Assembly: GCF_027797465.1 (NCBI RefSeq)
Contig: NZ_CP115608.1
Coordinates: forward strand, 744,001-808,000
Direction of reading: 5' to 3'
DNA length: 64,000 nt
Origin: Campylobacter sp. CN_NE2
GTDB taxonomy: Bacteria > Campylobacterota > Campylobacteria > Campylobacterales > Campylobacteraceae
Below, in pieces: positions 4,459 to 56,269 of this stretch. Every line of letters begins with the position of its first letter. Positions within the stretch are counted from its first letter, which is position 1. Under the pieces are notes generated by a model. That model was not told the DNA's origin. It saw only the letters and a list, made by a program, of their open reading frames with translations, and ran no database searches. A program made the position numbers and the translations under genes.

Positions 4459-5159
4459 ATTTTATCTTTATCACACTTTTTGAAAATCTTGTAAAGCCCT
4501 ACTTTGGGGATTCTATTTTAAAAAGGGCATGTGAAAAGAATTTGATTTCAACACATTTTTTTAACCCACGCGAATTTACCGCAAACAGATATAAAAAAGT
4601 CGATGAGTATATGATCGGCGGTGGAGCCGGACTTCTTATGCAGTGCGAACCTTTGGCGAATACGATTGAAAAAGTAAAAACTAAATTTGAAAATGTAAAA
4701 TTCATATACCTTACGCCTGTGGGTAAAAAATTCACTCAAAATGACGCAAAACGGCTAAGCAAGGAGCAAAATTTATGCTTTATTTGTGGCAGATACGAAG
4801 GAATCGATGAACGCATTATCGAAAAATATATCAATGAAGTTTTTTGCATAGGCGATTTTGTGCTAACGGGTGGCGAGTTACCGGCACTTTGTATGTGCGA
4901 TAGTATCGCACGAAACATAAAAGGCGTTTTGGGAAATGAAAGTTCGCTTGAAATCGAAAGTTTTGAAAACGAACTTTTAGAAGCACCGTCGTTTGCAAAA
5001 CCTGATAATTTTGCAAATTTGAGTATAATTTCAGAGTTTTTAAAGGGAAATCACGCTAAAATACAAGCTTTGAAATTTAGTATGGCGAACTCAAAAACAA
5101 GGTTCTTTCGCCCCGATATGTTCCGCAAAATCAAGTATCGCCAAAAAGGAAAACTATGA
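4455..5159 (+). CDS. trmD: tRNA (guanine-37-N1) methyltransferase
   Basis: Methylates G37 next to the anticodon of tRNAs reading CNN codons, preventing frameshifts. The 234 residues form a SPOUT fold with the knot motifs [13 protein letters not shown] and [12 protein letters not shown], the S-adenosylmethionine pocket. The C-terminal residues [10 protein letters not shown] belong to the tRNA-binding domain. The start overlaps rimM by four bases and the stop overlaps rplS by four. All catalytic landmarks are present. Confidence 0.96.
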
Positions 5160-5692: not shown

Positions 5693-5744
5693 CAAATTTG
5701 CTTAATTTTCTAAAAAATATTCAAGACAGAATAGGCGTAGTAAT

Positions 5745-5815
5745 TTAAAAAATTTCGCTGTTTCAAGGGAGCTACCTTTATCGGTAGTGACCGCAGAAAT
5801 AGCGAAATTTTTTAA
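5745..5815 (+). repeat. 71-base long-stem inverted repeat with nested hairpin
   Basis: 5745-5764 (TTAAAAAATTTCGCTGTTTC) pairs over 20 bp with 5796-5815, with a single G-T wobble. The 31-base loop holds a second hairpin, CTACC (5772-5776) with GGTAG (5783-5787). The ends are AT-rich, but no T-run follows outside the stem. It could be a small structured RNA, a miniature mobile element or a bidirectional terminator; only one copy is seen here. Confidence 0.55.
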
Positions 5816-5875
5816 TTTAATCCGTTCAAGTTTGGGGAATTAAAAGCTTAGGTTAATTTCAATTACACCAAAATA

Positions 5876-7500: not shown

Positions 7501-9177
7501 TTAATTTGCAAGTTGATCTTTGATAAGATCGCCAAGCGTCATTTTATCGTCGCTTTCGCTGTTGAATTTATCTAAATCTTCACGCTCTTTTTGTTTTGCA
7601 AGGCGTTTAATGCTTAGGCGAATTCTATTTTTCTTTTCATCGATAAATGCAATCGCAGCTTCGATTTCATCGCCTACTTTCAAATTCGCAGGATCAATCG
7701 CGCCTAAATCTTCTTTGCGGATTAGCGCATCGACATTATCGCCAAGTTCGACAAACACACCAAAATCTTTAATATCGCGAATTTTGCCTTTTACGATACT
7801 GCCTTGTGCGTGAGATTTTGCATACTCATTTACAGGGCTATCGGCTAAATCTTTGCGATTTAGAGAGATTTTTTGCGTTTCATTATCGATTTTGATGATT
7901 TTTACTTCTACTTCGTCGCCGACTTTGAATAAATTTTTGCATTTTTCATTTCTATCCCAAGAAGCATCTTCATTATGCAAAAGACCTTCAACGCTTCCGA
8001 TTTTAATAAATGCACCAAAATTTGTGATAGTCGTCACTACGCCTTTGACAACATCGCCTACTTTGTAAGCTTCGTTAAATTCGTCAAATGGTTTAGCTAA
8101 TAAATTTTTAAGGCTTACTCTTAATCTTCTTTCTGCTGCGTTGATTTCAACGACTTCGACATCGATTTCATCGCCTTCTGAAATGAAGTCTTTTGGATTT
8201 TTGATATTTTTATCCCAAGAAATTTCGCTGATATGCAAAAAGCCTTCAATGTCATTTCCCAAATCAACAAACGCACCATAAGGCTCTATGTTGCTAACTG
8301 TTACTTGGATAGTATCGCCGACTTCTAAGCTATCTTTGATTTCGTCCCATGGATCAGGCATTGCGCCTTTGATTGAAAGTGATAAATGTCTTTTGTCATT
8401 GTCATATTTGATAACTTTTACAGGAACCTTGTCGCCTTCTTTGTAAAGCGAATTTGGATTAACAGGACCTTTGTAGCTAATTTCGCTGTAATGAACTAGC
8501 CCATCTACGCCACCGACATCAACAAACATACCATAAGTTGTAATTTTTTTAACGACACCTTCGATGACGCCGTCATTTTCAACGATTTTTGAAATCGCTT
8601 CTTTTTTGACTTTTCTGTCTTCATCTAAAAGTTTTTTGCGAGAAACAACCACGCTTTGCTCGTCTTTGTCGATTTTAATAACTTTTACTTTATATGATTT
8701 GCCGATTACTGAATTTGAGTGTTTAAATGCACTTTGCGAACGAGGCATAAAAAATTCAACACTGTCGGAATTTACGCATACATAGCCACCTTTGTTAAAA
8801 GAAACGATTTTTACATCGAAAATATTTTCTGCATTTTCATCGAATTTTTCGATAAATTCTTTAACTTTTTCTTTTTTAAGTGCTTTTTTGTATGACACTA
8901 GCGGACGACCGCCTCTGCTACCTGTGATAGCAACTTTTATAGAATCGCCTTCTTTAAAAAGCAAATTGCCGTTTTCGTCAGTTATTTCAGAGATTTCTAA
9001 AACACCTTCTGATTTTCTACCGACATCGACAAATACTTCGCTGTCTTTTATAGCGACGATTCTACCCTCGCCAACTTCATCTCTTTCAGTCTTTTTGTAA
9101 GACTCTTCCAACATTGCCGCAAAATCTTCGTTTTCGAATTCTGCGTTATCTTGAACTTTTTCGTTCACCTTAGGCAT
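7501..9177 (-). CDS. rpsA: 30S ribosomal protein S1
   Basis: Binds mRNA and brings it to the 30S subunit. From the ATG at 9177 it has 558 residues with six S1 (OB-fold) repeats; repeats such as GMFVDVGGVDGLVHYSEIS and GAFVDLGNDIEGFLHISEISW are clear. An upstream in-frame start would add 14 residues, but the ATG at 9177 (MPKVNEKVQ) has the proper AAGGAATAAG ribosome site and family length. A -10 box lies at 9228-9233. The leader contains a GCTTTTT/AAAAAGC hairpin (9202-9217) that might serve autoregulation, as known for S1 elsewhere. Confidence 0.96.
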   Translation of the reverse strand: MPKVNEKVQDNAEFENEDFAAMLEESYKKTERDEVGEGRIVAIKDSEVFVDVGRKSEGVLEISEITDENGNLLFKEGDSIKVAITGSRGGRPLVSYKKALKKEKVKEFIEKFDENAENIFDVKIVSFNKGGYVCVNSDSVEFFMPRSQSAFKHSNSVIGKSYKVKVIKIDKDEQSVVVSRKKLLDEDRKVKKEAISKIVENDGVIEGVVKKITTYGMFVDVGGVDGLVHYSEISYKGPVNPNSLYKEGDKVPVKVIKYDNDKRHLSLSIKGAMPDPWDEIKDSLEVGDTIQVTVSNIEPYGAFVDLGNDIEGFLHISEISWDKNIKNPKDFISEGDEIDVEVVEINAAERRLRVSLKNLLAKPFDEFNEAYKVGDVVKGVVTTITNFGAFIKIGSVEGLLHNEDASWDRNEKCKNLFKVGDEVEVKIIKIDNETQKISLNRKDLADSPVNEYAKSHAQGSIVKGKIRDIKDFGVFVELGDNVDALIRKEDLGAIDPANLKVGDEIEAAIAFIDEKKNRIRLSIKRLAKQKEREDLDKFNSESDDKMTLGDLIKDQLAN

Positions 9178-9227
9178 CTTATTCCTTTTAAAATGATTTG
9201 CGCTTTTTAAAAAAAGCACGATTTATA

Positions 9228-9316: not shown

Positions 9317-9512
9317 GAATTTGGGTTTGAGATTCTTCGCTTCACTTCGTTTCGCTCAGAATGACGAAATGGTGCGTTACAGAAAGGAATAACAAATGCC
9401 GACGATTTGTGGGGCTTTGGAGTGTGAGCGAATGAGACGCACTGTTTGTGCGTCGCAATGAAGCGAACACGAACAATCGCCACAAAGCTAGGCTCATCTC
9501 AATCCCAAATTC
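9317..9512. repeat. composite repeat region with 16-bp inverted ends
   Basis: GAATTTGGGTTTGAGA (9317-9332) is inverted with one mismatch at 9497-9512, bracketing 164 bases. Inside are an ATTCTTCG..CAGAATGAC repeat (9331-9365), of a kind frequent in bacterial intergenic DNA, and the 115-base structured element (9388-9502). The right arm overlaps the ispH stop codon, so the inverted repeat reaches the gene end. No protein gene is visible between rpsA and ispH. Confidence 0.55.
9388..9502. repeat. 115-base structured element, copy 1
   Basis: Shares AATAACAAATGCCGACGA, TTTGTGGGGCTT and ATCGCCACAAAGCTAGGC with copy 2 at 24465-24579; both are exactly 115 bases. Pairings: GCC with GGC (9398-9400, 9491-9493), TTTGTGG with CCACAAA (9406-9412, 9480-9486), GTGTGAGC with GCGAACAC (9422-9429, 9463-9470, tandem GA mismatch), GACGCAC with GTGCGTC (9436-9442, 9448-9454), loop TGTTT. 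The two inner helices differ in sequence between copies but stay paired. It lies just after the ispH stop. The sense strand is unknown. Confidence 0.7.
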
Positions 9513-10347
9513 AAAATTTAAAATTTTCTATTTTTGCTATAACTTTTTGTATAATCCAATCCGGTGTGCTAGCCCCTGCACTAATCCCGCACAAATTTTT
9601 ATTTTCAAACCACGAAATTTCTAGTTCATTTTCATTTTCTATTAGGTAGCTATCTTTGCAAAATTTTTGCGAAATCAAAAAAAGTTGCTTTGTGTTTGAT
9701 GAATTTTTTCCGCCTATGATTATCATTATATCGGCTCTTTCGGCTAGTTCTTTGGCGGCTTCTTGGTTTTCAAGTGTAGCGTTACAAATCGTGTTAAAAA
9801 CGCGAACTTCACGGACTTTTTTAACTAAAAAATCAACTATTTTCATAAAATTTTCTATTTTTTTGGTCGTTTGCGAAACAACGGCAACCTTGCTTTTAAA
9901 TTTGATATTTTCAAGCTCACTCTCATCTAAAACCACAAACACCCTGCTTTGGTCTTTGCCATAAGATTTCACACCTTTTACTTCGGGGTGGTTAGTATCT
10001 CCAAAAATGACTATATCATAGCCGTTTTCGCTCATCTCTTCTACGATTTGTTGTGGTTTGGTTACAAATGGGCATGTTGCGTCGATTAGCTCTTTATTTT
10101 GTGATTTTAAAATTTCCAAATCGTCCTTTGTGATGCCGTGTGTGCGTATGATTAACTTATTTTCATCGGTAATTTCAGAAATTCCGCTAAGGGTTTTGAC
10201 GCCAAATTTATCTTTTAGCCGTTTTATCTCTTCTGCGTTGTGGATTAGTTCGCCGATAGTTGCGGCAGTTCCTGCACTCTCAGCCATTTTTATGGCTCTT
10301 TTTACGCCAAAACAAAATCCACAACTACTAGCAAGTTCAATCTTCAA
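9511..10347 (-). CDS. ispH: 4-hydroxy-3-methylbut-2-enyl diphosphate reductase
   Basis: Last step of the MEP isoprenoid pathway: reduces HMBPP to IPP and DMAPP using a [4Fe-4S] cluster. The 278 residues carry the three cluster cysteines ([28 protein letters not shown]), the conserved His residues (ELIHN, RTHGI, TNHPEV) and the SSNT phosphate-binding motif. The start overlaps the aroA end by 11 bases. A structured repeat begins immediately after the stop. ispDF of the same pathway lies elsewhere in the window (32519). Confidence 0.96.
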
Positions 10348-17198: not shown

Positions 17199-17223
17199 CG
17201 TAGGGTGGGCATCCTTGCCCACC
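17199..17223 (+). repeat. CGTAGGGTGGGC hairpin repeat, copy 1
   Basis: CGTAGGGTGGGCATCC followed by TTGCCCACC forms a 7-bp hairpin (GGTGGGC/GCCCACC). An inverted copy with two mismatches lies at 21100-21124. Similar TAGGGTGGGC..GCCCACC words are scattered through many unrelated bacterial genomes. It lies just after the dps stop on the other strand and may help terminate dps. Confidence 0.6.
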
Positions 17224-21027: not shown

Positions 21028-21222
21028 TTACCATAACGAATTTATTCTCTTGCAACAACAAACATAATAGGGCGATAAAAAGAAATTTACATTATTTTCG
21101 GTGAGCAAGAATGCCCACCCTACGAAGCTAGTTTCATCAATATGTGCTTGAATATTGATAGGCGTAACACCATCTTTTTCAAAAATCGGTTTTGAACCGA
21201 CAAAACTATTTTCTATACTCAT
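21028..21222 (-). CDS. small hypothetical protein, C-terminus supplied by a repeat
   Basis: 64 residues, no family recognised. It starts at an ATG one base after the stop of the upstream membrane-protein gene, with AGGAG inside that gene's end, so translation looks coupled. The first 35 residues (SIENSFVGSKPIFEKDGVTP...HIDETSFVG) look like real protein. The rest is read through the TAGGGTGGGC repeat (21100-21124) and AT-rich DNA and is hydrophobic and Cys-rich (YYVCCCKR). I infer a gene truncated by repeat insertion. Confidence 0.45.
   Translation of the reverse strand: MSIENSFVGSKPIFEKDGVTPINIQAHIDETSFVGWAFLLTENNVNFFLSPYYVCCCKRINSLW
21100..21124 (-). repeat. CGTAGGGTGGGC hairpin repeat, copy 2 (inverted)
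   Basis: Reverse complement of the 17199-17223 word with two substitutions. It lies inside the small ORF 21028-21222 and changes its reading. The two inverted copies bracket dps, the OB-fold gene, pgi, galU and yigZ (3.9 kb). Confidence 0.6.
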
Positions 21223-23565: not shown

Positions 23566-24327
23566 TTAGTCCCTTAAAAAGCCTGTTAGTGGCGAACTTG
23601 CCGCGGCAGTATTTCGCACGGCGCCAAATTTGGCATTATAGGCGTCTCGCCCTGCATTTATCGCATTTGCAAAGGCTTTTGCCATTTGGACTAAATCGCT
23701 AGAAGTGGCGATTGCGGTATTTACCATGACAGCCGCACACCCCATTTCCATGGCTTCACACGCTTGGCTTGGACGCCCTATTCCCGCATCGACGATGATC
23801 GGCAAATCCACTTCGCCGACTAAAATTTCAATCATATCTCTCATCATAAGCCCACGATTTGAGCCAATGGGCGCACCAAGCGGCATCACAGCGGCTGCTC
23901 CTGCGTTTTTTAGGCTACGAGCCACATTTAAATCAGCGTGCATATACGGAAGCACGATAAATCCGTCATTTGCTAAAATTTCGGTCGCTTTAATGGTTTC
24001 GTAATTATCGGGGAATAAAAATTTGCTATCTGTGATAATCTCGATTTTGACGAAGTCCCCACAGCCTAGCTCCCTTGCTAGTTTTGCGATACGCACGGCT
24101 TCTTCTGCGTTTCTGGCGCCACTTGTATTTGGCAAAAGCGTAACGCTTTTTGGTATGAAATTTAAAATATTTCTGTCTTTGCTCTCGCTTACCCTGCGAA
24201 GTGCGAGTGTTACAATCTCACACCCAGCGTTATGGACACAGGCTTCTATCATTTCGTGGTCGAATTTGCCAGAACCCATTATGAAGCGAGATGAAAATTC
24301 CTTACCACCCAAAACTAATTTATCCAT
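23566..24327 (-). CDS. thiG: thiazole synthase
   Basis: Builds the thiazole phosphate from deoxyxylulose-5-phosphate, ThiS-thiocarboxylate and dehydroglycine. The 253-residue TIM barrel has [12 protein letters not shown], the catalytic Lys region ([17 protein letters not shown]), [11 protein letters not shown] and [17 protein letters not shown]. An AAGGAAATTTC site precedes ATG. It is followed directly by thiH. A 248-base gap holding the structured repeat separates it from the upstream thiF, which is unusual in this otherwise gapless operon. Confidence 0.96.
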
Positions 24328-24464
24328 TTGAAATTTCCTTTTGATTTTTTAAATTTTAAGTGAAATTATACATTTTAAATCTGAATTCATTGTAAGATTT
24401 CAAGCAAAAACCAAAAACTAACGAAATATAGCCATAAAATTAGGCTAGTTTCAACGCAAATTTG

Positions 24465-24579
24465 AATAACAAATGCCGACGATTTGTGGGGCTTACGAGT
24501 TTTTACAAGTGAGATAAGGCTGTATGCCTATCGAACGAAGTAAAAACGAAGTATCGCCACAAAGCTAGGCTCAGCTCAA
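24465..24579. repeat. 115-base structured element, copy 2
   Basis: Same length and end sequences as copy 1 (9388-9502). Pairings: GCC with GGC (24475-24477, 24568-24570), TTTGTGG with CCACAAA (24483-24489, 24557-24563), GTTTTTAC with GTAAAAAC (24499-24506, 24540-24547), GATAAGGC with GCCTATC (24513-24520, 24526-24532, one bulged A), loop TGTAT. Its right end contains the thiF stop codon (24576-24578). TCAACGCAAA occurs on both sides (about 24451 and 24576), which might be a target duplication. Confidence 0.7.
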
Positions 24580-25208
24580 CGCAAAATTTCCTGCAAAACA
24601 GCGTTTGCTTGGTGGGCGGCGCATAGCATTACTCTTGGCGAAATTAATCCATTTTCAAGCCCTGCACCGCTTGTGCTGTCGCCACAAATATAAAGATTGC
24701 TTCCAAATTTGCGAGTTTGGATAGAATTTGCTCCCCCAAGACCAGCCATACCCGAAGCGCAAACAAAAATTTTATCTTTATACTCAGCCGATAAATTCGC
24801 TATCATCGCCTTATTTTCGGCTCCGTCGAAGCACTCGCAGATGATTTTTTCGTCCCGTAAAATTTCACGCACATTTTCACTAGTGATTTTTTCGCCGCAA
24901 ATTTGCACTTTTGCGTAAGGGTTAATTTCTAAAATTTGCTCTTTTAAAGCTTCTATTTTTGGGCGTCCTAAATGTTTTAAGGCGTAGTGTTGGCGGTTTA
25001 AATTTGAAATTTCCACTTTATCAAAATCGATAAGTTTTAGCTCACCAATTCCAGCTCGAACTAGCATTATAGCGACATTTGAGCCAAGCCCACCAGCTCC
25101 AAGTATGCAAACTCTTGCATTTCGTAAAATCTCAGCCGTTCCTTTTGGATTTCGCGTAAAAATTTCAGCCCTAAATTCGCTTTCATTTTTTAAATTTTTA
25201 ACTTCCAC
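24576..25208 (-). CDS. thiF: ThiF, adenylyltransferase for ThiS
   Basis: Adenylates the C-terminal glycine of ThiS so that it can receive sulfur. The 210 residues belong to the E1-like ThiF/MoeB family: GAGGLGSNVAIMLVRAG (ATP loop), DFDKVEISNLNRQ, and FDGAENKAMI. It is of the short type, without a rhodanese domain. The start follows the thiS stop by two bases. The stop codon lies inside a dispersed structured repeat, so the last residues (VLQEILR) may have been altered when the element arrived. Confidence 0.92.
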   Translation of the reverse strand: MEVKNLKNESEFRAEIFTRNPKGTAEILRNARVCILGAGGLGSNVAIMLVRAGIGELKLIDFDKVEISNLNRQHYALKHLGRPKIEALKEQILEINPYAKVQICGEKITSENVREILRDEKIICECFDGAENKAMIANLSAEYKDKIFVCASGMAGLGGANSIQTRKFGSNLYICGDSTSGAGLENGLISPRVMLCAAHQANAVLQEILR

Positions 25209-56227: not shown

Positions 56228-56269
56228 TGTCATTGCGAGAATTTGCATAGCAAATTCGAAGCAATCGCC
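56228..56269 (-). repeat. ATTRC..GCRATGACA hairpin repeat, copy 2
   Basis: TGTCATTGCGA, then GAATTTGC (56239-56246) paired with GCAAATTC (56250-56257), then GAAGCAATCGCC. On the minus strand it matches the outer words of 5651-5692 but has another stem. Lies between the DUF2130 gene and a hypothetical gene. Confidence 0.6.

Follow-up and report, generated by a model that had tools for sequence, protein, structure and literature searches.

The two 115-base elements at 9388-9502 and 24465-24579 of the window, the 64,000 nt stretch of Campylobacter sp. CN_NE2 analysed here (NZ_CP115608.1 744,001-808,000, forward strand, from a closed genome of 1.54 Mb), are copies of one repeat family, termed family I, which has about 50 members in a gut Campylobacter. 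The family appears to be a new branch of the small mobile repeats that take a hairpin shape. The best explanation, held with about even confidence, is that its members are non-autonomous mobile DNA repeats of small size, recognised while folded as single strands, akin to the substrates of the REP and attC systems but belonging to neither. This explanation draws on a shape that is conserved on one strand, with covariation, nearly invariant ends and a loose stem sequence, and on placement at gene boundaries, copy number and a narrow taxonomic range with outliers in another genus. It draws also on presence/absence differences between genomes, including an empty site, on swaps of body and of family at orthologous gene ends, and on tandem copies joined through TTCAA.

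Family I and its distribution

The coordinates and near-identical ends that an earlier note had given for the two elements are confirmed (Table 1). Its statement that the element is seen twice holds for the window and fails for the genome, where the pattern GCCGACGATTT-N48..78-AAAGCTAGGC finds 44 exact-ended copies against none for a reversed-pattern control. A similarity search of the same closed genome, here G000, returns 58 matches. The invariant-ended core is 99 nt long in both window copies, beginning with ATGCCGACGATTT and finishing with AAAGCTAGGCT; the ends as first described lie 8 nt beyond this core on each side, within the unit of about 130-136 bp that is implied by the empty site described below.

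Family I has conserved end blocks of 13 and 11 nt and two main sizes, class A of about 97-102 nt and class B of 81 nt, together with a larger third one, of about 165-180 nt, in which a second repeat is enclosed by the same family I ends. Tandem copies lie about 26 nt apart and are linked via a TTCAA right end. A metagenome-assembled genome (MAG) of the same species, G073, obtained from roe deer omasum, contains 31 copies. Elsewhere among 153 genomes of the bacterial family, one MAG of the same genus has a single copy and one of another genus has two, with none in 149 other genomes of that family, in viral contigs or in plasmids. A match to the end pattern in Mycolicibacterium (L052) was set aside, its body being unrelated and a few chance matches being estimated for 257 Gb. 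A coding role was likewise rejected: a short reading frame does begin at the ATGCCGACGAT start, but neither its length nor its frame, compared by eye, is consistent across copies. Replication-strand bias is not evident, with 8 copies against 7 in the first chromosome half when the origin is assumed at base 1.

A copy that three genomes of the genus have in common at one gene end (G000:263163, G074:C82 and G075:C1:619412) is probably old, the last of these being the sole family I copy recognised in G075. Two further copies (L012 and L078; G000 851627-851766 and 637965-638086) carry a GCGAAGCGGTGCCACGAAGTGGCAGGTTTC repeat within the outer stem, in opposite orientations.

Table 1. Features of the window associated with the hairpin repeats; gene names are assigned from sequence
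Feature	Position	Strand	Basis or remark
Family II element, ATATTCAAGACAGA...GTTTGGGGAATT	5717..5841	+	same design; 34 nt from serA-like gene stop codon
rpsA-like gene, left of copy 1	7501..9219	-	name from sequence
Probable whole mobile unit, copy 1 (~21 nt left, ~10 nt right of core)	9375..9504	+	analogy with one empty site elsewhere
Family I copy 1, class A core, ATGCCGACGATTT...AAAGCTAGGCT	9396..9494	+	sequence, fold
Copy 1 basal helix GCC/GGC	9398..9400 with 9491..9493	+	fold; invariant in 25 class B copies
Copy 1 outer helix TTTGTGG/CCACAAA	9406..9412 with 9480..9486	+	fold; 98% paired, 77 copies
Copy 1 middle helix GTGTGAGC/GCGAACAC, tandem G.A mismatch	9422..9429 with 9463..9470	+	
Copy 1 apical helix GACGCAC/GTGCGTC	9436..9442 with 9448..9454	+	
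ispH-like gene, stop codon 16 nt from copy 1	9511..10347	-	name from sequence
thiG-like gene, left of copy 2	23566..24327	-	name from sequence
Variable block with copy 2, thiF-thiG boundary	24400..24597	+	
Family I copy 2, class A core	24473..24571	+	
thiF-like gene, TGA stop within copy 2 right arm, 4 nt from core	24576..25208	-	name from sequence

Conserved fold and covariation

On the + strand copies 1 and 2 fold with -40.4 and -37.0 kcal/mol, corresponding to z values of -3.3 and -4.5 against dinucleotide shuffles. The inner helices, which had been described as differing in sequence yet pairing in both copies, do so: the apical helix of copy 1 has its counterpart in GATAaGGC/GCCTATC of copy 2, and the middle helix, with its tandem G.A mismatch, in GTTTTTAC/GTAAAAAC. 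The suggestion that such compensatory change is the mark of a selected structure, RNA or DNA, has survived a covariation check on the additional copies, and the resemblance is not due to chance, given 44 genome copies, a reversed pattern without any match and the strong covariation of the 25 copies that align without gaps. The view that no named family matches also stands, as Rfam returns only below-threshold matches to microRNA precursors and sRNAs at gathering and relaxed thresholds.

The quantitative evidence comes mainly from a gapless alignment of 25 distinct 81-nt class B copies. The hairpin is paired in 96.1% of their cells, compared with 31-42% if the partner is shifted by 1-3 columns. 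Both sides are changed at 17 pairs and in 133 cells, shuffles giving 42 such cells, and covariation scores 0.526 against 0.18 shuffled and at most 0.11 slid; these counts come from related copies and are not probabilities. Several pair positions use three or four of the Watson-Crick pair types. The outer helix of classes A and B can be aligned without gaps from both ends and, across 77 distinct copies, is paired in 98% of cells against 35-60% when slid.

Departures from regular pairing are conserved as well. They comprise a bulged A in GATAAGGC/GCCTATC, a 5/4 internal loop GACGA/GCTA and tandem G.A mismatches. Between close copies, a single compensated pair can be followed from C-G (678337) through T.G (L046) to T-A (1202688).

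The strand that carries the fold

Mismatches can indicate which strand is under selection. When the count is limited to positions enclosed by Watson-Crick pairs and common to the folds of both strands, the + strand of family I has 29 G.T and 5 A.C mismatches (binomial p 4e-5). The + strand is also the more stable in all 46 class A copies with RNA and DNA parameters alike, and in class B in 25 of 31 copies with RNA parameters and 31 of 31 with DNA parameters. The bias of G.T over A.C and the greater stability together point to selection on the fold of the + strand, the strand on which the element was first described. Tolerance of G.T is also expected of an RNA. Position and orientation favour single-stranded DNA over RNA as the selected molecule.

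Family II

A second repeat family, family II, has the same hairpin design in the layout ATATTCAAGACAGA...(stem)...GTATGGGGAATT, with a length of 124-127 nt. The window copy reads ATATTCAAGACAGA...GGGGAATT, and about 22 other distinct copies occur in the fetched loci, many of them at gene 3' ends. The + strand of family II has 21 G.T mismatches against a single A.C and is the more stable in 22 of 23 copies. The two families have apical modules in common, and family II is often found within or beside family I ends.

Placement at gene boundaries

With genes called by open reading frames only, the distance to a gene boundary has a median of 24 nt at the right end of family I and of 163 nt at the left (Wilcoxon p 1e-11). 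For 65 of 82 copies the gene to the right runs on the opposite strand, with its stop codon abutting the element, and in 64 copies such a stop codon lies no more than about 60 nt away, always in the same orientation. About 16 copies instead lie a little upstream of a co-directional gene, mostly 24-31 nt from its start codon, and most of the copies that are not at a stop codon finish just ahead of the ribosome-binding site of such a gene. Both neighbours are transcribed against the + strand in 37 of the 82 copies, and the 60 bases to the left of the copies contain no promoter-like conserved block. These two observations argue against a general role for a + strand RNA, unless each copy has a weak promoter of its own. 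The two window copies have no terminator-like site, and the 150 bases upstream of them on the + strand contain no promoter-like one.

Differences between genomes

G000 and G073 have flanks that are about 95% identical. At the sites that they share the right gene is syntenic, whilst the left side is often different. Some shared sites have the same body (263, 856003, 907051, 1516533, 129835 and 695999), others differ in the body and have flanks that are almost identical (15818, 441710 and 1045321), and at the site of window copy 1 (753396) the two genomes differ in both body and left flank. At some gene ends the two genomes differ in the family present, one having family I and the other family II. 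Where a relative lacks the element at such a gene end, the DNA in its place is unrelated.

One clean filled/empty pair is found, at the start of a cysK-like gene. The inserted unit is about 130-136 bp and extends around 20-26 nt to the left and 8-16 nt to the right of the core, and the empty site reads GTAT|TTAAAGGA with no evident target duplication. The thiF-thiG boundary is variable: the window has the copy 2 element alone, G073 (L100, C20:400-8500) has a stretch of about 6 kb with genes that are kinase-, von Willebrand- or phosphatase-like, named from sequence, and G074 and G075 each have a single gene.

At the six sites where the two genomes have a body in common, it differs between them by 1.3% and nearby coding sequence by 5.1% (Fisher p 1.5e-5), a comparison in which pairs chosen by similarity favour such a result. 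A body four times more conserved than its coding neighbour could indicate a role at the site itself, and more than selfish mobility alone; recent exchange would equally explain the extra conservation.

Comparison with known systems

REP sequences of the GTAG superfamily are palindromes of 20-40 bp with an unpaired GTAG at one end (PMC3733652). Like them, family I consists of high-copy, extragenic and species-specific palindromes lying mostly downstream of genes, with variable stems in which changes are complementary and G-T pairs occur. In contrast to REP and their RAYT enzymes, family I elements are 81-102 nt long, have GACGA/GCTA rather than GTAG at the foot, have end blocks of 13 and 11 nt and are found in a genome with no Y1/RAYT gene. 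The CGTC-tagged REP have CGTC (or TGTC/CCTC) unpaired at one end, a stem of 8-9 bp, a loop of 4-5 bases and a short tail (PMC3733652). This group, which includes dRS3 and the Rickettsia RPE-4 and RPE-6, is similarly palindromic, lacks a known transposase and has a stem with A/T pairs at its base. The stem of family I is far longer, however, and its CGTC lies in an internal loop on the 3' side of the stem, on the opposite strand and enclosed by the GCC/GGC pair.

The likeness to attC sites is one of structure and polarity only. Family I is a strand-specific imperfect hairpin with an unpaired spacer near its base, an extrahelical base, a variable top and a position after stop codons, but there is no integron integrase, core-site consensus, cassette or array. 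The ends of attC sites have the consensus RYYYAAC and GTTRRRY, whereas those of family I, in gene sense, are GCCTAGC and TCGTCGGC. The miniature elements (MITEs) derived from IS200/IS605 resemble family I, on the favoured reading, in a hairpin that is recognised as a single strand and in non-autonomous copies, and may resemble it in insertion beside a short A/T-rich target without evident duplication, as at the one clean site. Such MITEs have two small subterminal hairpins; family I differs in being one large hairpin, and no Y1 transposase is found. Membership in any of these four groups fails on the tested features (PMC3733652, PMC2817692, PMC2727003).

The search for a mobilising enzyme

The Y1 transposase domain (PF01797) is absent from G000 and from the same-species genome, with positive controls; of the 13 genomes of the genus other than G000, 12 have no match and one a fragmentary match. 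No reverse transcriptase is found in the genome. It has two tyrosine recombinases, one XerH-like and the other a phage-type integrase, of which the first scores 78.2 bits against a cut-off of 265 for the integron integrase model TIGR02249 and the second gives no match. A longer, autonomous version of family I was also sought at unpaired 5' and 3' ends, and these prove to have family II inside, to have family II by the right end or to be decayed copies; no transposase gene lies between family I ends among those examined.

A possible mechanism and its rivals

If family I is mobile, the conserved base of the hairpin would be bound and cut by a transposase or recombinase working on single-stranded DNA. 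The stem above would need only its shape, so that its letters could drift by compensated steps and its sequence could also change through the exchange of nested inner segments. Gene boundaries would be tolerated or targeted points of insertion, at which strains may swap different copies, and the moving enzyme may act in trans, reside on another replicon or have been lost. A bolder claim, tentative and rather doubtful in its entirety, is that Campylobacter has an undescribed hairpin transposition or recombination system that recognises the base by shape, inserts in one orientation at gene boundaries, mostly after stop codons, swaps bodies in place and serves both families. Several results count against mobility: no Y1 transposase, reverse transcriptase or enzyme scoring as an integron integrase is found, a single clean empty site without target duplication leaves the exact ends unfixed, shared bodies are more conserved than their coding neighbours, and the tolerance of G.T fits RNA too.

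An unlikely alternative account is that the + strand is transcribed, as a small RNA or as the leader of the downstream gene, and that the fold is selected as RNA. The one-strand bias of G.T over A.C, the tandem G.A mismatches typical of RNA helices, the copies preceding co-directional start codons and the shared bodies with fewer differences than their flanks all suit such an RNA. It is at odds with the 65 copies antisense to the abutting gene and the 37 with both neighbours opposed, with the missing promoter block, with the lack of terminator- and promoter-like sites at the window copies and with Rfam; an intergenic element with strong covariation need not be a regulatory RNA. Somewhat less probable is an element of the 3'-UTR, in which a - strand hairpin behind the stop codon would stabilise, terminate or attenuate the message of the abutting gene, a role that has been proposed for REPs near stop codons. 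The fixed orientation of the 64 copies near a stop codon and the same placement of many family II copies are consistent with this, and ribosomes are reported to stall at REPs that lie within 15 nt of such a codon (PMC12306157, citing earlier work). Many spacings here exceed 15 nt, however, the selected fold belongs to the other strand, about 16 copies lie at gene starts instead, and relatives without the element carry unrelated DNA at the same gene ends.

That the palindromes experience no structural selection, and are kept perfect by arm-to-arm copying (template switching) together with nested segment exchange, is improbable. Inner segments do look like interchangeable modules, chimeras exist (L054) and apical modules are common to both families. 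Yet arm copying would erase the bulged A and the mismatched loops, which persist, it does not account for single compensated pairs with a T.G intermediate between close copies and, being strand-neutral, it cannot give 50 G.T against 6 A.C, so that this rival is already largely contradicted. Slightly more improbable again are integron-like attC sites scattered in the chromosome. The imperfect hairpin, with its unpaired spacer over a short basal helix, one-base bulge and variable upper stem, speaks for them, as do the placement after stop codons and the better folding of the gene-antisense strand, which resembles the attC bottom strand (PMC2727003). Against them are the copies dispersed behind core genes rather than in cassette arrays, ends that differ from the attC core pair, and the score of 78 bits against 265 for the better of the two tyrosine recombinases.

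Palindromic repeats without a known mover, such as the CGTC repeats and the Rickettsia palindromic elements, are a long-standing puzzle. Family I offers useful traits in this respect, namely near-invariant ends, fixed sizes, dozens of varied stems, a functional strand, a sharp boundary preference and recent presence/absence differences, which make the recognised strand, the place of cutting and the enzyme directly testable.

Other repeats in the window

Further repeats are dispersed in the window. Beside copy 1, a CGTCATTCTGAGCGAA...GAATCTC repeat at 9330-9366 (-), present also at 4731-4746, fits the published CGTC-tagged REP type in its part 9351-9366. A palindromic repeat GTCATTGCGAG...GAAGCAATCGCC at 56229-56269 is common in the intergenic regions of this genome, and GGCAAGGATGCCCACC, a dispersed intergenic palindrome, occurs at 17204-17219 (-) and 21104-21119 (+).
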